Positions 5,145 to 28,586 of a stretch of 30,062 nt of DNA are shown one piece after another. The position numbers and the translations under genes were made by a program. Location of the stretch: positions 1-30,062 of IMG/VR virus record IMGVR_UViG_3300025151_000192; one strand, given 5' to 3'. The stretch comes from a virus. Below the pieces are notes generated by a model, which saw only the letters and a program-made list of their open reading frames with translations, did no database searches and had not been told where the DNA came from. How positions within the stretch are numbered: position 1 is the stretch's first letter; each line of letters starts with the position of its first letter.

Positions 5145-5191
5145 ATATTAATATATAAACAAAAGTATTTTATTTTGTACGGTAATGGCAT

Positions 5192-6779: not shown

Positions 6780-7409
6780 TTATTGATTTATTTTGTTAAA
6801 TACTCTATCTAAAATGTTTTGCGGTCTGTTATTTGCAAAACGGTTAAGGTTTACTGCATTTGTGCTTTCAGGGTTTGCCTGAATTGGCTCTGCAGCTGGT
6901 TGGTTAAGTTCCTCTTGAACTTCTGCTGGCACTTCGTTTAATTCAACTTTTTCGTGCTTTGCAAGTTCTTCGGTTAAAAGGTTGCCTAAATCTTCTGCGC
7001 TCATTTGTTCTTTTGGCTCAAGCATTTGTTTAATTTTTTCTACCATTTGCTTAACCTCAGCGAGCTCCTCTTTTGTAGCGTAACCCATTTCTTCTTTTTC
7101 TTCTTCAAGTTCCACATCTTCCGATGCTTCAACTTCTTCGGCTGGTGCTTCTTCTTCGGCAGCAGCTTCTTTAATTTCAGAAATAAGCCCCTCTTCTTCA
7201 ATGACTAAAATACGGCCATCTTCCAGCTCGTATTCACCAACAGGAACAGCCACTTTTTCGTCATCGGTAACTATAAAAATTTCGTTACCGCTTTCAAACG
7301 CTTCTGCTTCAAGAACAGTTCCGTTTTCTAACTTTTGTTGTTCTAACTTAACTTCCTCGCTAAGATTTAGAACTTCCTTGATTTTACTGATCATATCATT
7401 CGTGTTCAT
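6780..7409 (-). CDS. Capsid scaffolding-like protein
   Basis: A 209-residue, very acidic protein four bases upstream of the capsid gene. Residues 1-80 contain a compact beta-rich part (NEIFIVTDDEKVAVPVGEYE). Residues about 80-110 are almost all Glu/Ala (AAAEEEAPAEEVEASEDVEL). A coiled coil follows (TKEELAEVKQMVEKIKQML), and the C-terminus is basic and Asn-rich (NRFANNRPQNILDRVF), the usual capsid-docking end of scaffolds. A helical, charged protein encoded just before the capsid is expected to template procapsid assembly and be removed by the upstream protease. Its ATG is preceded by the recurrent TTATATATTAATATG leader. Confidence 0.7.
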   Translation of the reverse strand: MNTNDMISKIKEVLNLSEEVKLEQQKLENGTVLEAEAFESGNEIFIVTDDEKVAVPVGEYELEDGRILVIEEEGLISEIKEAAAEEEAPAEEVEASEDVELEEEKEEMGYATKEELAEVKQMVEKIKQMLEPKEQMSAEDLGNLLTEELAKHEKVELNEVPAEVQEELNQPAAEPIQANPESTNAVNLNRFANNRPQNILDRVFNKINQ

Positions 7410-7445
7410 ATTAATATATAAGTGTTAAAAATTAATTTTGCATTT

Positions 7446-9306: not shown

Positions 9307-11199
9307 TTATAGGGTTGCGCCCTCTACAATATTGTTGTTTAAGCTTTGCGCTGTTGTTACATCATTTGCCACCACATAGGCCTGAACTGGCTGTTGTTCT
9401 TGCTCGCCTATGGCTTCAGCTAATTGACTGGTTTCTGTTGCACCTACAATATTAAAACTCGGGGCTTGCGGTTGCGCAGCACCACCACCACCAGCACCGC
9501 CGCCGCCTATTGTACTGGCTACACTATTAGCTGAACTTGTTGCTGATTTTACAGCCCCTATAATACCAGCGAGCTGGGCTGCATAACCAATCAATAAAGG
9601 TATGTTTTGCGGGAACCCTACTTTCGCCGTTTGGGCTGTACCCTCTGCTCCTGCGACTGTACTTTTTGCAATTGCCAGCTTTCCAAATGTTATGGTCTTT
9701 TTTGCCTCCATAACCATTTCTTTCAAGGCCAAAGCTTGTTTCGCTATTAATAGCGCTTTGCCTACGCCAGTTTCTGCGCCAGCCAAACTAATTGCATCGT
9801 CAAGGGCTTTTTGTTTTGCAGCTGTTTTTTGTTGTTCTAAACGTGCTGTTTCTTCTGCCAATTTTGTTTCTTCAGCAAGTATATCGGCATCAACCTTTTT
9901 CTTAGCTTCAACTTTTAATTCATCGTAATACCTTTGCACTTCTAACAGCTGTTCATTTGTAGCTCCTAACCTATCAAGTTCAGCAAGCTTTCTTTGTTCT
10001 TCAAGTTCTACCTTTTTTAGCTCATTATCAGCATCCCTGTTTTCTTGTTTTATGCGGTAATCGTTTTGTATTTTTTCAATGGCCGCTTGCTTTTCCTCTT
10101 CGGTCATTACATCAGATTTTGCTGCATCTTTTGTAACTTTATTGGCCTCACGTGTTGCGGTTGTTATTTCAGCCGTCAGAGCCTTTTGTAGTTTTAACCT
10201 TTGTGTTTCTTTATTAATTACTTCGGCCTTTAATTGTGCTTCTTCATCAAGGTCTGCTTTATTACTTTTGGTTAAGGCGTTTTCGGTTTGTTTAGCTTCA
10301 AGCCGTATTTTAGCAACTTCGGTTTCTTGCTGCGCTAAATTGTTGCTTATTTCAGCGGCTTCCTGTAATGCTTTTATTCTTTCCTCTGCCGTTACGTTTT
10401 CCTTGTCTGCGGCTTTTTCGCGTAGGGCGGCAATATCACGTTCTGCTTCGGCACGTTTAACCACCAAATCCCTCGCCATTTTTTCGGCCTTTGCACGTTG
10501 ATCGGCTATTTTCGCAGCGGCTTTCGCATCATCTACAATTTCATCTTTAAAACTTTTAACGGCATTTGTCGCCTTGTCAATACTGTTTTCAACGCCTGTA
10601 AAACTATCAACAAAACTGCTGCCAGCTTTTTTCGCACTTTCCAACGCTTCATCAAAATCGCCTTTAAATACGCTTTTTATTGCACTACCTAAAAAACCAA
10701 CTGTATCAAGTATAGCTTTAAACCTGTTTGTTATATTGGTTACAAGTAAGTTTTTAAAGTCAATAAGGGCTTGTTTTGGGTCTTCAAAAACGCTTATAAT
10801 CCCCTCGCCTAAATCCGCAAGTAAATCTAAAAGGTTGCCAGTAACACTACCAATCACACCCAGTATTTTAGCAAATTTGTTTTGCCCCTCTTCGCTACGT
10901 GTAAAGGCCTGTCCAAGTGAAGTAACTGCAATTAATAAAGCCCCTATTCCTGTTCCTATAATAGCAATACGTAAACTTTTAAAGCTACCTATAACGGTTT
11001 TTAACGTGCCTTTTAAAGCTTGGAATTTACTTACTGCGCCGCCAGTTGCTTTGTCTACTGTTCCTGCCATAGCTTGCGTAGAGGCGTTTGTATTGTCTAT
11101 TTCCTTGTTGGTTTCTTTTATGCTTTCCTTAAACTTGTCTAAGCCGCCAGCAGCTTTAACCGTATCAACGTCAATTACTATCTTTTTTTCTATTGCCAT
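9307..11199 (-). CDS. Tape measure protein
   Basis: A 630-residue protein that sets tail length and travels through the tube at infection. It starts with a short strand (MAIEKKIVIDVDTVKAAGG). A hydrophobic helix is at about residues 75-95 (IAIIGTGIGALLIAVTSLG), followed by another hydrophobic stretch near VIGSVTGNLLDLL. Residues about 220-450 are a long charged coiled coil rich in Ala, Glu and Lys. A second hydrophobic patch is near 520-550. A Gly-rich linker lies at 565-575, and the last 50 residues (LAEAIGEQEQQPVQAYVVAN) form a conserved-looking end. Using about 0.15 nm per residue, the tail would be roughly 95 nm. Its start lies within the 3' end of the 46-residue gene. Confidence 0.85.
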   Translation of the reverse strand: MAIEKKIVIDVDTVKAAGGLDKFKESIKETNKEIDNTNASTQAMAGTVDKATGGAVSKFQALKGTLKTVIGSFKSLRIAIIGTGIGALLIAVTSLGQAFTRSEEGQNKFAKILGVIGSVTGNLLDLLADLGEGIISVFEDPKQALIDFKNLLVTNITNRFKAILDTVGFLGSAIKSVFKGDFDEALESAKKAGSSFVDSFTGVENSIDKATNAVKSFKDEIVDDAKAAAKIADQRAKAEKMARDLVVKRAEAERDIAALREKAADKENVTAEERIKALQEAAEISNNLAQQETEVAKIRLEAKQTENALTKSNKADLDEEAQLKAEVINKETQRLKLQKALTAEITTATREANKVTKDAAKSDVMTEEEKQAAIEKIQNDYRIKQENRDADNELKKVELEEQRKLAELDRLGATNEQLLEVQRYYDELKVEAKKKVDADILAEETKLAEETARLEQQKTAAKQKALDDAISLAGAETGVGKALLIAKQALALKEMVMEAKKTITFGKLAIAKSTVAGAEGTAQTAKVGFPQNIPLLIGYAAQLAGIIGAVKSATSSANSVASTIGGGGAGGGGAAQPQAPSFNIVGATETSQLAEAIGEQEQQPVQAYVVANDVTTAQSLNNNIVEGATL

Positions 11200-16809: not shown

Positions 16810-16857
16810 ATAATTGTACTTACTAATATATAAACGTTTTTAAATATTTTTAGGCAT

Positions 16858-17667: not shown

Positions 17668-18822
17668 TTAGTGAACTGCATATTTTCCAAAGTTAGGACG
17701 GCTTAAAATTGAATAAGTTGCGTAACGTACAGCATCAATTATGTGATTATTCTTGTCTACTGGCTTGTTTGTTAGTTTGCCACTTCTGTCCTCTGCCCAT
17801 TTGTAGTTTCTAAATTCTTGTATTGCGTTGTTACTGTCTGCGGTTATATGTATTTTAAAGCGTTTAAGCAAGTCTATTCCAGCGTTAATACTATCACGCC
17901 CCTTTAAGCTGGGTTGTATATTATGCCCCATCCTGCGCAGTTCGTCAATTAAACGTGGCTCAGCTGCATCAAAATAAATTGGGTTGCGCCCTATTGGTAA
18001 GCTTTTAAAATGGTCGCTGATATCACGTGTGGTCATCATAGTCCTATACAGGTGTTCTTTTATATATAGGTTATAATCCTTTTTATATACGCTTACAAGT
18101 GTGCTCGGGTCGTTAGTGTACCCAGCATCTGCGCCGTAGCTTATAAGTTCAGCATCGTGTGGAATATGCGGTACTTCTATATAATTAAATATCGTTGCTT
18201 TGCTTACACCCCTAACCCCAAGGCCGTATATTTGCCAGTATTGTTCATCGGTTTCTTTAAGCCGTTCTATTTCTGTTATTATACTGGGGTCTAAAAACTT
18301 GTTGTCTAAATATGTGGTTTTGTAAAATTCAACATCTTCCCTATTTAGTACCTTGTCATATATCCAATGATATTCATCACTTGGGTTGTAATCTAATATT
18401 ATTTTTTCTGTTGTTCTAAATATAAGCTGCTGCCAATCTTCGTAGTCAAGTTCGTTAGCCTCATTAATAAATAAAAGGTCACGTTTGCGCCCCCTTATTT
18501 TTTGCGGCTGGTCTACGCTTATAAATTCTATAAGGTTGCCACCTAAGTTGTATTCACTATTGCTTTTATTGTGGTGCGCTTCATCATATATATTATGCTG
18601 TTTTAATATATCAATAAAATCACGCATAACAGAACTGCGTACAGCTGGGAACGTTTTACGGCAAATGGTTACCGTTTTATCTACGTTTGTTTGGCAGTAG
18701 TGGAATATTAAATACAGGAGGATATTGTAGGTCTTACCGCTACGTGTACCCCCCTGTTCTACTACTATCTTTTTTTGGCTGTCAAGTAAGTGCTCAAATA
18801 CTACATTAACATCAACTGTCAC
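17668..18822 (-). CDS. terL: Terminase large subunit
   Basis: A 384-residue packaging motor of the PBSX-like type. The Walker A is GGTRSGKT at residues 24-31. The Walker B with catalytic Glu is LLFINEANE at 116-124. The RNase H-like nuclease has candidate acidic residues at D232 (ADAGYTND), D285 (YFDAAEPR) and D363 (HIIDAVRYA). It pumps DNA into the procapsid and cuts it, working with TerS and the portal. The start codon overlaps the TerS stop as ATGA. It is compact for the family but both domains appear complete. No cos-like sequence is obvious nearby, and the circular assembly fits headful packaging. Confidence 0.93.
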   Translation of the reverse strand: MTVDVNVVFEHLLDSQKKIVVEQGGTRSGKTYNILLYLIFHYCQTNVDKTVTICRKTFPAVRSSVMRDFIDILKQHNIYDEAHHNKSNSEYNLGGNLIEFISVDQPQKIRGRKRDLLFINEANELDYEDWQQLIFRTTEKIILDYNPSDEYHWIYDKVLNREDVEFYKTTYLDNKFLDPSIITEIERLKETDEQYWQIYGLGVRGVSKATIFNYIEVPHIPHDAELISYGADAGYTNDPSTLVSVYKKDYNLYIKEHLYRTMMTTRDISDHFKSLPIGRNPIYFDAAEPRLIDELRRMGHNIQPSLKGRDSINAGIDLLKRFKIHITADSNNAIQEFRNYKWAEDRSGKLTNKPVDKNNHIIDAVRYATYSILSRPNFGKYAVH

Positions 18823-19166
18823 CTATGTATTTTAATATTTATTTCCTTGTCTGTGGTGTCGTGCTTTATTTCACGCTTTGTACCGTTTAACCTATGCGCT
18901 TCATCATCATCTGCAATTAGCTTCATTAGGCCTATTTGTAAAGTAGGGTTATCGCTTTCGTACCATTTGGCTCGCATATCTACTTTCATATTTATACGGT
19001 TTTTTGCCAGTTCGCTTTTTATAGCGTTGCATTCTTGCAATTTGTGGTCATAAAACGCCCTTTTACTGAACCCAGTATAACCAAATATATCGCCTATAAA
19101 AACAAGGTTATGTTTTTTTATTACCTCTAAACTTTGTTCCCTTAATTCTTCTGTATTGTATGCCAT
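18819..19166 (-). CDS. Terminase small subunit
   Basis: A 115-residue protein directly before TerL, coupled to it by ATGA. Residues about 20-45 hold a helix-turn-helix candidate (VFIGDIFGYTGFSKRAFYDH). The NRINMKVDMRAKWYESDNP and TLQIGLMKLIADDDEAHRL segments fit the helical oligomerisation core of Bacteroidota-phage TerS proteins, and the basic end TTDKEINIKIHR may bind DNA or TerL. It should select the phage DNA start site for packaging. A GTTTATATATAAATATAG leader lies upstream. Confidence 0.8.
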   Translation of the reverse strand: MAYNTEELREQSLEVIKKHNLVFIGDIFGYTGFSKRAFYDHKLQECNAIKSELAKNRINMKVDMRAKWYESDNPTLQIGLMKLIADDDEAHRLNGTKREIKHDTTDKEINIKIHR

Positions 19167-19206
19167 AGTATTATCTATATTTATATATAAACAATTTAGT
19201 AAATTT

Positions 19207-19563
19207 TTATTCGCTTATAATGGCTTCTACTTTTTCTACTTGTTCTGGTGTAAGGTTTTGTATCTTGTTTAGTATGTTTAGCTTAGTGTCGTTTAATAAG
19301 GACTCGTATATAAGTTCTAAGTCCCTATTATAAAAGCTATGCTGCGGATACGTGTTTATACTATGTATGATGCTGGGGTGTGTTGTATTGTAGCCGTTCT
19401 TTTTATAGTCGTTTACTATTGCCATCAGCTTCATATTAAGTGCTTTGGTTAGGTAAGTGTTTACCATACTTCGCATTTCTATTACATCACGTCGGCGTGT
19501 TTGTTCAAATATGTTTACCCCTGTAATGTTTTGTACTGTGTTTGCTATTGTTTTAAGTTTCAT
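19207..19563 (-). CDS. DnaA domain-IV-like DNA-binding protein
   Basis: A 118-residue protein resembling only the C-terminal DNA-binding domain of bacterial DnaA. The section NITGVNIFEQTRRRDVIEMR (residues 12-31) corresponds to the first helices with the basic RRRDVxExRS motif. NGYNTTHPSIIHSIN (56-70) parallels the DnaA signature around RDHTTVIHA. No AAA+ domain is present. It could bind host or phage DnaA boxes, acting at a phage origin or as a competitor of host initiation. It lies just upstream of TerS, so a role in choosing a packaging or origin site is also possible. Confidence 0.65.
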   Translation of the reverse strand: MKLKTIANTVQNITGVNIFEQTRRRDVIEMRSMVNTYLTKALNMKLMAIVNDYKKNGYNTTHPSIIHSINTYPQHSFYNRDLELIYESLLNDTKLNILNKIQNLTPEQVEKVEAIISE

Positions 19564-19742: not shown

Positions 19743-20108
19743 TTAGTTTAGTTTTAAAAATTCTGCGTTTGCGTGTTCTGTGAACCAATCTTTGTTTTCG
19801 TTATATTTGTCAACAACTGCGTCAATCATTACAAGTTCGTCAATACTGGCTGTTTTAAGCTTGTTTACAAGCGTATCTATTTTTCTTAATACGTTTGTAC
19901 ACATTTCAGGGTTATTGGAATAAATAAGATTAAAATCTGTTTTTACTATTCCCTCAAGTATTTTAGTTGTTCTGTTTACTTGTTGTTTAAGGTTTTGTTT
20001 GTATTGGTATGTTCCAACCAGTTCATCGTTTGCCTCTAATAACAACTGGCTTAATAACACCACCTTTAAATAATTTAGGTGTTTGTTGTTTATTTGTTCT
20101 GGTTTCAT
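19743..20108 (-). CDS. Hypothetical helical protein after the glycosyltransferase
   Basis: A 121-residue all-helical protein: KHLNYLKVVLLSQLLLEAND, LKQQVNRTTKILEGIVKTDF, PEMCTNVLRKIDTLVNKLK and SIDELVMIDAVVDKYNENK. It may form a coiled-coil bundle. The start overlaps the glycosyltransferase stop as TAATG, so it is coupled to that gene. No catalytic or metal motif is visible. It could be an accessory subunit of the modification enzymes; that is only an inference from coupling. Confidence 0.55.
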   Translation of the reverse strand: MKPEQINNKHLNYLKVVLLSQLLLEANDELVGTYQYKQNLKQQVNRTTKILEGIVKTDFNLIYSNNPEMCTNVLRKIDTLVNKLKTASIDELVMIDAVVDKYNENKDWFTEHANAEFLKLN

Positions 20109-20848
20109 TAAAATAAAGTTGTTTGTTTACTGGTTAATATTTTGTAACTGTTTTTATTTAGTAGTATTTCGTTTGGTCGTTTAGTGTTTAGCTTTATACA
20201 TTCGCCCCACTTGTTTATCAAGTATTTTATTGTTTGCTGTTCTAACTGCTCTGTTCTGTAGCTTACCGCACCGCCTTTATTCCCATACCTTTTAAAGTTA
20301 AATAAATACTTGTGATACCGTATGCAGCCAGCTTTTTTAATATGCTGCAAAGTGTAATCATAATCTTCCTTTAATTTTAATGTTTTATCAAACCTTATTT
20401 CATTGGGTTTTGTAATTGTAAAGGGTGCAGTAATTAATATATTTTCTTGACTTGGTTTTGTTGCAAAAAATGGGTTTTCTGTTGGGGGCGCACCAGCAAA
20501 AAAATAATCTGTTTCTAAAAATTGTTTTAAAATGCCGTCAATTGCTTGCTTTACAGTCACGTATTTTTTTGTCCTTTTTCCTGTAAAATCATTTACACTT
20601 ACATTAATTAAGTCATCATCTATTTGTACGCATATTTTATTTTTATTAAAACAATAATCAAGCGCAGCGTTTCTGTTACCTACCAAACTGCCGCCTAAAA
20701 TAACATTTTTTGCGCCGTTTTTAATATATAGGTTTTTATCAATTTCATCATTAACAACAAAAACAATATCTTCCGTTCCAGTTGTTTCATATATTTGCTT
20801 TATATTTTCTGGCCTTCTGTGGCTGATGCAAGTTATAATATATTCCAT
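20108..20848 (-). CDS. GT-A-fold glycosyltransferase, probable DNA hydroxymethyl-base glycosyltransferase
   Basis: A 246-residue protein. The N-terminal Rossmann-like part is MEYIITCISHRRPENIKQIY with IVFVVNDE. GNRNAALDYCF at 57-67 precedes the DxD-type metal/nucleotide-sugar motif VQIDDDL (D77-D79). The acceptor-side acidic motif KEDYDYTLQHI is at 160-170, followed by a basic aromatic part (YHKYLFNFKRYGNKGG). The family resembles the TET/JBP-associated glycosyltransferases predicted to act on oxidised bases in phage DNA, and a TET/JBP-like oxidase lies 635 bases upstream in the same operon. The C-terminus QTTLF matches the QxxLF sliding-clamp peptide, as does the neighbouring gene. Glucose or another sugar donor cannot be read from sequence. 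Confidence 0.72.
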   Translation of the reverse strand: MEYIITCISHRRPENIKQIYETTGTEDIVFVVNDEIDKNLYIKNGAKNVILGGSLVGNRNAALDYCFNKNKICVQIDDDLINVSVNDFTGKRTKKYVTVKQAIDGILKQFLETDYFFAGAPPTENPFFATKPSQENILITAPFTITKPNEIRFDKTLKLKEDYDYTLQHIKKAGCIRYHKYLFNFKRYGNKGGAVSYRTEQLEQQTIKYLINKWGECIKLNTKRPNEILLNKNSYKILTSKQTTLF

Positions 20849-21306: not shown

Positions 21307-21486
21307 TTATTTAAAGGTTTTTAATTTTTCAATATAAATAATCGCATCTAATAGTTCTTCTTGTAAGTGGTTTAACCAGTCTGCTTTGTTAAGGTCTTGG
21401 CGTTCCATAGTTACGCCGTATTTACTTTTGCCTATGGCTGCACGTTGGTTAATTTTATCTATTACTTGTTGTTCTATTTTGCTCAT
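21307..21486 (-). CDS. Small MazG/NTP-pyrophosphohydrolase-like protein
   Basis: A 59-residue ORF found between the oxidase and nuclease genes. It reads MSKIEQQVIDKINQRAAIG and KSKYGVTMERQDLNKADWL, then NHLQEELLDAIIYIEKLK. The EExxDA acidic helix and the KYG.TMER.DL..WL.H.QEELLDA pattern are like short MazG-type helical bundles, which hydrolyse nucleoside triphosphates, but only half a canonical fold is present. The ATG overlaps the oxidase stop as ATGA, so it is co-translated with it. If active, it could adjust nucleotide pools for modified DNA synthesis; this is a weak inference. Confidence 0.6.
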   Translation of the reverse strand: MSKIEQQVIDKINQRAAIGKSKYGVTMERQDLNKADWLNHLQEELLDAIIYIEKLKTFK

Positions 21487-22352
21487 AATGTTAGGTATCC
21501 TGTTTTATCCATTTTTGTTTTATGCAGTTCTTCGCTGGGGCTTTTACATTTAATCATATTTTCCCTGTAATACATTACAAAACTAATACGCAGCCAATCA
21601 TCACTGCAATTTGTGAACTCTGTATTGGCGTGCCATTTGTGTACATCTGCAAATAATACGTCTGTATTATGTAGGTCTACAGCTATGGCATATTCTGGCA
21701 TAACAAAAAAGCCGCCGTCGTAATGCCCCTCACGATATACAATAAGGTTGCCAAACCCCTCACTAAAATCGCCAGCATCTTGATGGCAAGCCGTACGGAA
21801 GTTCTTGTTTACCGTTACAGTTGTAAAACTTGTATCGCCTATAACGTAGTTTCTGTTCGTACCGTCTGCAATAGCTTTTTGTTTTGCGTAATGTTCTGGG
21901 CAAAGTTCCGCATATTTTTTATCAATAAATTCTACAAACGGAATACCAGCTGTAAACTTGTCAAAGTAGTTACGTGCAAAGGCAGTTTTGCGGCAATACT
22001 TAACCATCGCACCGCTGTCCATAAAACCAACGTTGCCAGACTCTACCTTATTCCCTACCGTAATGTTACTAACTGAACCGTCCTTGCGTATGCGCTTGTG
22101 ACTGCTGCCACTTGCTGCACCCCTACTTTCTGTAAGTTCTATAGAACCCTTAAAGGCATCAACACCGCTTTTTAATATATCGTAAGGTATTGCGTTTTTA
22201 CGGAACCTGAACAATAGGTTTCCATAATTATCGTAAGCATCGCAGTCCTCTGTTATAAGCTGGTTATAATGTTTATCAGTAAGGAACTTTGTTTTAAGTT
22301 TGGCAGCTTGCTTTTTTGTTAAAACCCTTTTGGCTGTTATTGTTTTAATCAT
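21483..22352 (-). CDS. TET/JBP-like 2-oxoglutarate/Fe(II) dioxygenase, probable DNA base oxidase
   Basis: A 289-residue protein. The C-terminal half is a double-stranded beta-helix with the metal-binding set H190-x-D192 (FRTACHQDAGDF) and H241 (ADVHKWHANTEF), and R255 (DDWLRISFVMYYREN) as candidate 2-oxoglutarate ligand. VTVNKNFRT before it, GNLIVYREGHYDGGFFVMPEY and AVDLHNTDVLFADVHKWH follow the pattern of JBP1/JBP2, TET and phage relatives that oxidise a 5-methyl group in DNA. Residues 60-130 (GSVSNITVGNKVESGNVGFM) probably form the DNA-facing N-terminal part. It lies in an operon with a glycosyltransferase. The substrate could be thymine, since no methyltransferase is visible, or host-made 5-methylcytosine. 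Confidence 0.78.
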   Translation of the reverse strand: MIKTITAKRVLTKKQAAKLKTKFLTDKHYNQLITEDCDAYDNYGNLLFRFRKNAIPYDILKSGVDAFKGSIELTESRGAASGSSHKRIRKDGSVSNITVGNKVESGNVGFMDSGAMVKYCRKTAFARNYFDKFTAGIPFVEFIDKKYAELCPEHYAKQKAIADGTNRNYVIGDTSFTTVTVNKNFRTACHQDAGDFSEGFGNLIVYREGHYDGGFFVMPEYAIAVDLHNTDVLFADVHKWHANTEFTNCSDDWLRISFVMYYRENMIKCKSPSEELHKTKMDKTGYLTL

Positions 22353-25270: not shown

Positions 25271-25410
25271 AGGTCAATATCTATATCGTTCCATTCTTCA
25301 CGTCGTTGGTCGCAACCGCAATCCTTTCCTATTGCTTTGCTTACCTTTTTAACCAGCCAATGTATGCCAGTATAATAAGTAAAATAATAAACTAAATCAC
25401 CGAGTTTCAT
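25258..25410 (-). CDS. 50-residue protein with a CxC motif
   Basis: A short ORF found in the gap: MKLGDLVYYFTYYTGIHWL, then VKKVSKAIGKDCGCDQRRE and EWNDIDIDLWNK. The GKDCGCDQRREEWN part is a pattern seen in small Bacteroidota phage proteins as I recall. The start overlaps the sigma-like stop as ATGA. It may pair with the other CxC protein (25073-25270) encoded directly after it. Confidence 0.65.
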   Translation of the reverse strand: MKLGDLVYYFTYYTGIHWLVKKVSKAIGKDCGCDQRREEWNDIDIDLWNK

Positions 25411-25898
25411 AACTGTTCTTTTATATGTTTTTTTGCGTTTGTATAAGTATTGTATAAGCTGTAATAACTTATATTTGTTTCCCTACTTAATGCGGCCACA
25501 CTTTTACCGCTGGCACATATTTCAAACACCTTGCGGTCGTACCAAAACATATCATCTAAAATAGTATCTATTTGTTTTTTACGCTGCGCATATTCAAGCT
25601 CATCAATACCAAGTTCTTCGGCTTGTCGTAGTTCGTTAATTTCCTCTATATAAGTTTTTAGTTTACGTGCCTCTTTTTTGTATATGTTTAAATAAATACC
25701 CCTTAACACTTTATAACAATAGTAGTGGTTTACGTCATCGCCGTACCAAAGGTCTAAACCTTTTTGGGTGTCTTGTATCAACTGAATGTACATTTCTTGC
25801 ACAATATCTTCGCTGGTTGCTGGGTTGCAGCCAAAACTCTTTACAATACGTATCCAGTCTTGGTGTTTAAGGTATGCTATTTCAACTATATTTTTCAC
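25407..25898 (-). CDS. Sigma-70-family-like protein
   Basis: A 163-residue protein from a GTG start that overlaps the ATPase stop as GTGA. Residues about 8-75 resemble sigma region 2 (KHQDWIRIVKSFGCNPATSE, then DIVQEMYIQLI) and residues 118-160 a region-4 helix-turn-helix (VFEICASGKSVAALSRETNI, SYYSLYNTYTNAKKHI). A charged linker with EEINELRQAEELG lies between. It could direct host polymerase to phage late genes or act as an anti-host factor. An alternative is a helix-turn-helix phage protein with only general resemblance, since region 2 is divergent. Confidence 0.6.
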   Translation of the reverse strand: MKNIVEIAYLKHQDWIRIVKSFGCNPATSEDIVQEMYIQLIQDTQKGLDLWYGDDVNHYYCYKVLRGIYLNIYKKEARKLKTYIEEINELRQAEELGIDELEYAQRKKQIDTILDDMFWYDRKVFEICASGKSVAALSRETNISYYSLYNTYTNAKKHIKEQL

Positions 25899-26749
25899 AG
25901 TTTTTTAGGTACAAAGTATTCTAATGGGTCATAAATTTCGCCTACAACAAACGGCAAACCAAACTCGTTAATACTAAAGCTAAACGTTTCAAAGGCATAA
26001 CCCCTTGACCGCTTGCAGCTTACCGTTATCCATTCTTTATTAACCGTATTGGCTTCAAGTTGTATTTGTGTTTCTGTCTTTTTTTCTAAAAAGCTACCGA
26101 GGTGGCCTGTTGGTTTGTCGCTGCCGTAATTACTATGTATTACAGTAACGATATGGCAGTTAAACTTTGCGCTCCACTCCATTATTTTTTGTACACATAG
26201 GTTACTTTCCTCAAGGTTGTTTACATCACTTACAAGGTCGGCAATACCGTCAATGATAATAAGGCCGTTTTTATCGCCATTTTCTTTTAATATGTACTCA
26301 ATAAATTCTATACGCTGTTTGTAGTTTATTGTTCTTAATGCGTAAGTTTGGTAACACCCTACATCTTTAACATTTGCCATATCAAGCACACGTTTAAAAA
26401 CCCTTTGGCTGTGCCAATGGCCTTGTTCTGTATCAAAGTGTATAAGGCACTTGTTATCGCGATGCCCTAAAATCTTACCGCCAAAGTTATTACCGCCGCT
26501 TAAATATACGCTTGCAAGTAAACTAACAAAAAACGTCTTTTTGGTTTTTGGTGGTGCTTGCACGAAGCTGAAGTTTCCGTACGTGCCTATTGGAATAGGG
26601 AATGTTTTTTCACCCTGTTTGCTTTGTATTGTTTTTTGACCTAAACTCAGCGCAGTTGGTGGGTACTCCATAACTTCGGTCGTGTCTACGGTACACTCCT
26701 CTTTTATAAGTTCCATTAACATTTGCTGCGTTGTTTGTTCTTCTGTCAT
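25895..26749 (-). CDS. RecA/RepA-like AAA family ATPase (replicative helicase or recombinase)
   Basis: A 284-residue protein. The P-loop is atypical: SFVQAPPKTKKTFF at residues 61-74 has Ala and Lys where GxxxxGKT has Gly (A65, K70). The second strand carries CLIHFDTEQ with E108, a candidate catalytic Glu. Walker B is NGLIIIDGIADLV (161-173). HIVTVIHSNYGSD is the sensor strand, and TGHLGSFLEKKTETQIQLE a late motif. The combination resembles RepA-like hexameric helicases of phages and plasmids. As no polymerase or primase gene is visible, it probably brings host replisome to the phage origin. It follows the SSB terminator by a short spacer. Confidence 0.75.
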   Translation of the reverse strand: MTEEQTTQQMLMELIKEECTVDTTEVMEYPPTALSLGQKTIQSKQGEKTFPIPIGTYGNFSFVQAPPKTKKTFFVSLLASVYLSGGNNFGGKILGHRDNKCLIHFDTEQGHWHSQRVFKRVLDMANVKDVGCYQTYALRTINYKQRIEFIEYILKENGDKNGLIIIDGIADLVSDVNNLEESNLCVQKIMEWSAKFNCHIVTVIHSNYGSDKPTGHLGSFLEKKTETQIQLEANTVNKEWITVSCKRSRGYAFETFSFSINEFGLPFVVGEIYDPLEYFVPKKL

Positions 26750-27886: not shown

Positions 27887-27915
27887 TTGTTTTATGTTTT
27901 TAAATTAATAATACA

Positions 27916-27948
27916 CAAATTTAAAACAAAAAAATTAATATAAACAAA
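27916..27948 (-). promoter_or_regulatory. Consensus Bacteroidota promoter for the SSB unit
   Basis: On the minus strand TTTG (plus 27945-27948) and TAAATTTG (plus 27916-27923, a full TAnnTTTG match) are 21 bases apart. The upstream sequence TGTAAATAA before TTTG resembles that of the 24.6 kb promoter. The first ATG follows at 27886. A strong terminator lies 24 bases upstream (27972-28000), so the unit is insulated. Confidence 0.8.
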
Positions 27949-28469: not shown

Positions 28470-28551
28470 TTGAATAAACCCCAGTTATCTTATATTTATA
28501 TAACTGTTTTTTTATGTTTTTATTTATAACTATTTTTAACTATAAATAATG

Positions 28552-28559
28552 CAAAGTTA
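28552..28559 (-). promoter_or_regulatory. Putative promoter -7 box for ninG
   Basis: Plus strand CAAAGTTA reads TAACTTTG on the minus strand, an exact TAnnTTTG match. The -33 side is only T-rich and has no TTTG, so it is weaker than the other promoters. The leader is about 75 bases to the ATG at 28469. The A/T-rich 28470-28586 stretch contains nothing else that I can support. Confidence 0.55.
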
Positions 28560-28586
28560 TATATTTTATTTTAAATAAAAAAAAAT

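Follow-up and report, generated by a model that had tools for sequence, protein, structure and literature searches.

DnaA domain IV and its stand-alone phage relatives

Domain IV of DnaA (PF08299; structure 1J1V) is among the described systems to which the protein analysed here is closest. In E. coli DnaA, R399 inserts into the minor groove, the 3' portion of the DnaA box is recognized by the helix 434-451, and both the T435M and the R399A variants are defective, with box binding abolished by T435M (PMC5742627). The protein encoded in the window (the whole stretch of DNA under study, a virus record of 30,062 bases with its main genes on the minus strand) shares with this domain the fold, the order of the helices and the counterparts of R399, R401, R407 and H434. 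Unlike DnaA, it is devoid of domains I-III and has D433, T435 and Q408 replaced; the turn of its helix-turn-helix is longer, and there is an extra C-terminal helix.

Many phages, flavophages included, already have small DnaA C-terminal proteins among their annotated products, none of them found with a tested function; our search of the open literature (with most subscription journals outside its reach) yielded no work on a DnaA-IV protein from a phage. The comparison set comprises the "DnaA protein" of Cellulophaga phi19:3, gp53 of Polaribacter Freya, gp36 of Tenacibaculum Gundel and gp18 of Nonlabens P12024L. They resemble the window protein in being single domain IV proteins (~110-155 aa) of flavobacterial phages, albeit with only ~18-26% identity to it. 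All four are encoded in replication or recombination modules, whereas the window gene lies beside the gene for the small terminase subunit (TerS). The Freya gene is accompanied by a DnaC-like loader, the Gundel gene by genes of primosomal and replication proteins, and those of phi19:3 and phi13:2 by a DnaC-like replication protein, while P12024L gp18 neighbors an ERF recombination gene and lies at a distance of more than 11 kb from the gene of the large terminase subunit (TerL). P12024L gp18 joins the family only on iterated search and has no Pfam Bac_DnaA_C match; UniProt lists it as a DnaA C-terminal protein, in agreement with its model. The window protein is an unusually diverged and well-conserved member of this already annotated set.

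A different comparison is offered by late regulators of the ArpU/RinA type, which are encoded just before terS in Firmicutes phages. Likened to them by position and not by sequence, the window gene is placed between the early genes and a terS operon with a promoter (a likeness that fits only clades A and C, as defined below). Unlike in the ArpU/RinA setting, the window phage carries its own ECF-type sigma factor.

A maintained gene upstream of the terminase genes

The gene and its downstream neighbors are as follows.

19207..19563, minus strand: stand-alone DnaA domain-IV-like gene (P0001, 118 aa), established by ORF calling, family profiles, fold and selection
18819..19166, minus strand: putative small terminase subunit, assigned from its position before TerL; no Pfam match
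17668..18822, minus strand: large terminase subunit (phrog_2, 1.5e-43)

The reading frame begins with the ATG at 19563 and ends with the stop codon at 19207-19209, leaving a gap of 40 bp to the putative terS, which is followed by terL. An earlier note on this DNA had proposed here a DnaA-IV-like protein with the motifs RRRDVIEMRS and THPSIIHSIN; the ORF is indeed present, on the minus strand, and the motifs occupy residues 23-32 and 61-70 of its product. A dN/dS of ~0.08 between the window protein and its two nearest homologues indicates that it is maintained; the 118-aa ORF is a genuine gene, subject to purifying selection.

Family assignment

Taken by itself, the window sequence makes a weak case for likeness to DnaA domain IV. 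Bac_DnaA_C (PF08299) was its top Pfam match (E 0.074, 13.5 bits as compared with a cut-off of 31.5), a phmmer search of the PDB with the single protein gave no match, and tblastn and pattern scans with it found only two contigs (97-98% identity) and nothing in phages, plasmids or genomes. Two other assignments were set aside: NCBIfam GFO_1090 (E 0.01-0.02), being far under its cut-off, and a weak PHROG match (phrog_7711), the fold being already explained by the DnaA link. An alignment of mixed flavophage proteins had too little conservation for a pattern scan.

Significance came with the relatives, which were gathered using TerL as an anchor (80 related viral loci, 3,019 ORFs). Within this ORF set, phmmer with the window protein alone recovered ~30 homologues, including the phi19:3 "DnaA protein" (E 3.6e-5), and an iterated search extended the family to more than 70. 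(One further query was a Bacteroidetes-like DnaA-IV sequence; evidence was taken only from the records that it retrieved.) The homologues were sorted by eye into clade A (mostly 117-130 aa, including the window protein), clade B (~167-185 aa, with RDHxxV as in host DnaA) and clade C (~161-192 aa). A conserved C-terminal tail, approximately KGAKLNRPVKNPVLC, a possible partner-binding peptide, is seen in clade C (e.g. L026:5062-5607 and L036:3751-4266) and is absent from clade A.

Three alignments were used, A3 (clade A), A4 (all 51 sequences) and A5 (clade B), and the profile-profile comparison of A3 with A5 gave a probability of 96.9% (E 1.6e-10). The A3 profile, built without any DnaA-annotated sequence, matched 2hcb, 1l8q and 1j1v in the PDB, all of which are DnaA, at E 2.3e-4 to 2.5e-3 (the next, unrelated match being at 0.45), and the profile of 51 sequences matched 1j1v at 8.8e-13. 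In the opposite direction, Bac_DnaA_C was found in 48 of the 51 members at an E of 0.1 or lower, the best match being at 2.9e-16, and two members of clade A, L029 (2.4e-8, 34.3 bits) and L101 (1e-7, 32.3 bits), exceeded the Pfam cut-off. At the level of sequence, the similarity to Bac_DnaA_C is reached via the clade of the window protein, with the window sequence itself under the cut-off. The profile comparison with the DnaA C-terminal domain, suggested in the earlier note as a check, proved significant by the same route (A3 against DnaA in the PDB, E 2.3e-4).

Fold and DNA-contact residues

An AlphaFold2 model of the window protein with the 51 homologues had a pLDDT of 88.2 and a pTM of 0.77. 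(An earlier model, built on three near-identical sequences, was of low quality, with a pLDDT of 56 and meaningless Foldseek matches.) In VIA-align, six DnaA entries led the comparison with Z of 8.6-11.1, the next row being at 5.7; DnaA chains also ranked first in Foldseek (probability near 1, with weak E-values), and many matches in a viral structure library were titled "Chromosomal replication initiator, DnaA C-terminal".

19273..19563, minus strand: residues 1-97, superposing on DnaA domain IV (1J1V, Z 11.1, rmsd 2.3, 91 aligned)

The domain IV match takes up these 97 of the 118 residues, and both the AAA+ domain III and the N-terminal domain I are absent. By profile and structure comparison, the window protein is a DnaA domain IV fold with a helix-turn-helix and without the motor domain, so that the ATPase-free, DnaA-IV-like protein of the earlier note is borne out by the clade profile, the model and the structure matches.

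The elements that bear on DNA recognition are located as follows.

19495..19497, minus strand: codon of R23, the counterpart of the minor-groove R399, invariant in 51 homologues
19384..19407, minus strand: extended turn (residues 53-60) leading into the recognition helix, by alignment ~4 residues more than in E. coli DnaA
19375..19383, minus strand: codons T61-H62-P63, the counterparts of D433-H434-T435, with H kept and D and T lost

The recognition-helix H62 (H434 in DnaA) is likewise invariant (51/51 sequences), and the counterparts of R401 and R407 are almost so. The Q408 counterpart is S32 in the window protein, and the D433-H434-T435 set of a canonical reader of the DnaA box (TTATNCACA) is represented by T61-H62-P63. 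The RDH motif of host DnaA is preserved in clade B (the D before H was taken from the sequences themselves, A4 having a gap in that column). Judged from these alignments, the DNA-gripping scaffold is kept and the specificity-setting part changed in the window protein. The combination of fixed R399 and H434 with varying D433, T435 and Q408 suggests that each phage clade would read a site of its own rather than the host DnaA box. The earlier note had staked its case on the DnaA-IV fold and on its DNA-contacting residues: the former is confirmed, and the contacts of D433, T435 and Q408 are lost.

Distribution and gene neighborhood

The DnaA-IV gene belongs to the core genes shared by a large group of marine flavophage-like contigs: 40 of the 50 related contigs have it. 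In nine of the other ten, the sequence extends no more than ~2.2 kb beyond TerL on the upstream side, and in the tenth (L089) it extends 4.9 kb, occupied by other genes. The gene lies directly before TerS in ~29 loci, and in ~28 at least one gene stands between the two (counted by hand, a contig fetched twice being taken as one); cargo between or beside the two includes genes of a Tet/JBP-like oxygenase and of a glycosyltransferase. In the window, a Tet/JBP-type oxygenase (PF12851, 2.8e-23; 21483-22352, minus strand) is found beside a TET-associated glycosyltransferase-like gene (20108-20848, minus strand), as part of a variable cassette for DNA modification that surrounds the DnaA-IV and TerS genes and that methyltransferases join in relatives.

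The DnaA-IV gene sits on the replication-recombination side of TerS, the side on which a possible replicative helicase is also encoded.

25895..26749, minus strand: RecA-fold ATPase (AAA_25, RepA-like), a possible replicative helicase (PF13481, 3.4e-7)

Orthologues of this ATPase are found in most full contigs, at least 5.5 kb from the DnaA-IV gene, which adjoins the late genes in this group. One contig (L111, also G042; 10170-11069) has a primase/helicase-type RecA-fold ATPase (phrog_18375, 4e-42) in place of the RepA-like one and still carries the DnaA-IV gene, which is also kept where a 5'-3' exonuclease replaces the PD-(D/E)XK exonuclease. Contigs of 29-31 kb (G005, G007, G032, G033, G042) share an identical gene order with the window and have different start genes, as if circularly permuted, suggesting that the window may be a near-complete genome.

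A putative late promoter and an ECF-type sigma factor

A bipartite element (consensus ~CWAAAATAA followed by GTTTATATATWARTA) immediately precedes structural genes, both in the window and among its relatives, with window sites, all on the minus strand, at 19178-19192, 16821-16835, 7409-7423 and 5146-5160. One copy follows the DnaA-IV gene, and the phage encodes a sigma factor of its own.

19178..19209, minus strand: putative late promoter upstream of TerS, TAAAAAT (19203-19209) and GTTTATATATAAATA (19178-19192)
25407..25898, minus strand: ECF-type sigma factor (TIGR02985, Sig70_bacteroi1; 1.9e-9, under its cut-off)

The second box occurs seven times in the window at up to one mismatch (1.1 expected), G041 and G042 having the variant ACAAAATAA ... 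AACTATATAYAAAT. In many genes it ends at the ATG, an arrangement that would fit leaderless or nearly leaderless transcripts. This conserved element is a putative phage-specific late promoter, and the ECF-type sigma factor, whose conserved gene is shared by almost all full contigs of the group, is likely to read it. The early genes, unlike the late ones, have host-type TANNTTTG promoters (~28545-28565 and ~27910-27935, minus strand), with TATAACTTTG before NinG and TAAATTTG before the ERF-side genes. Inverted repeats also precede NinG (AGTTAT...ATAACT in the window at 28470-28520, minus strand; AGATA...TATCT in G007 and G023), and their arms seem to covary between phages, as in an operator or an RNA hairpin.

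Searches for binding sites

The clusters of DnaA-box-like sites anticipated in the earlier note did not appear: the window has 100 such sites at up to one mismatch versus 119 expected, no box clusters were found, and such sites were enriched neither in the window nor in related phages. The exact TTWTNCACA is low in most contigs, with 31 seen in the phages and 49 expected; this deficit is not special, since permuted control patterns gave similar or larger ones. No iterons were found within the window, and a comparison of four intergenic regions revealed mainly host-type promoters and no conserved block other than promoters. With no box enrichment, iterons or conserved block, both a DnaA-box origin and a decoy role are left without positive evidence.

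Functional assessment

From its fold, the protein would be a sequence-specific binder of double-stranded DNA made solely of DnaA domain IV. It would mark a site in the phage genome, probably the replication origin, to which DNA-opening or helicase-loading proteins of the phage or the host would be recruited; having neither the AAA+ nor the N-terminal domains, it cannot unwind DNA or load a helicase alone in the manner of DnaA. Marking of a phage origin appears to be the most likely role, at a probability that we would place somewhat below even. It is consistent with the fold and family evidence, the invariance of R23 and H62, the prevalence of the gene among the contigs and its location toward the replication-recombination genes. 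The persistence of the gene through the ATPase and exonuclease swaps is what a site-marker could show, and its counterparts in Freya, Gundel, phi19:3 and phi13:2 are found among replication genes. On the other hand, the site searches revealed no origin, the RepA-like ATPase gene is at least 5.5 kb away, with late genes next door, and the "replication initiators" of other phages bear that name by similarity only. The origin-binding role proposed in the earlier note survives as the best guess, with neither iterons nor an origin found.

The protein might instead control the change from early to late transcription, binding near the promoter after its own gene in the way of ArpU/RinA. This possibility, which we regard as doubtful, is kept as a rival because, in most of clades A and C, no other gene lies between the DnaA-IV gene and the first late-type promoter, even where TerS is not next; moreover, the upstream promoter box (TAAAAAT) overlaps the stop codon of the DnaA-IV gene in the window. 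However, the two-box promoter and the ECF-type sigma factor would explain late transcription without any DnaA-IV protein, the clade B gene is located further upstream with no such promoter behind it, and the relatives in Freya, Gundel and phi19:3 reside inside replication modules.

A takeover of the host, in which the protein would cover the DnaA boxes of the host origin and halt host replication, seems unlikely. An isolated domain IV could act as a competitor of DnaA, and the host motif is retained in clade B, but the window protein has T in place of D433, P in place of T435 (the residue whose change to M abolishes box binding in E. coli; PMC5742627) and S in place of Q408, and the phages show no special avoidance of TTWTNCACA. 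The occupation of host boxes envisaged in the earlier note is unsupported, given T61 and P63 in the box-reading triplet and the lack of box enrichment in the window and related phages. Finally, a packaging factor acting with TerS, e.g. by binding the packaging start site, as the earlier note had suggested from the adjacency of the genes, is highly improbable: TerS follows directly in the window and in roughly half of the relatives, but cargo intervenes in the other half, a promoter-like element lies in between even where the two adjoin, and the P12024L counterpart is remote from TerL.

Returning to the marking of a phage site, we tentatively propose, at well under an even chance, that the reading domain of DnaA was split from its motor and adapted, in each clade separately, to a phage-specific site with the two core contacts fixed, and that it would serve a RepA-like phage helicase as the only mark of the origin, or else act as an early-late switch beside a phage-specific late promoter. 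The three clades, with their constant core contacts and changed specificity residues, make up a natural set for swaps of recognition residues combined with site finding. Such swaps would show to which end phages use the DnaA reading head, be it replication, transcription or host shut-off.
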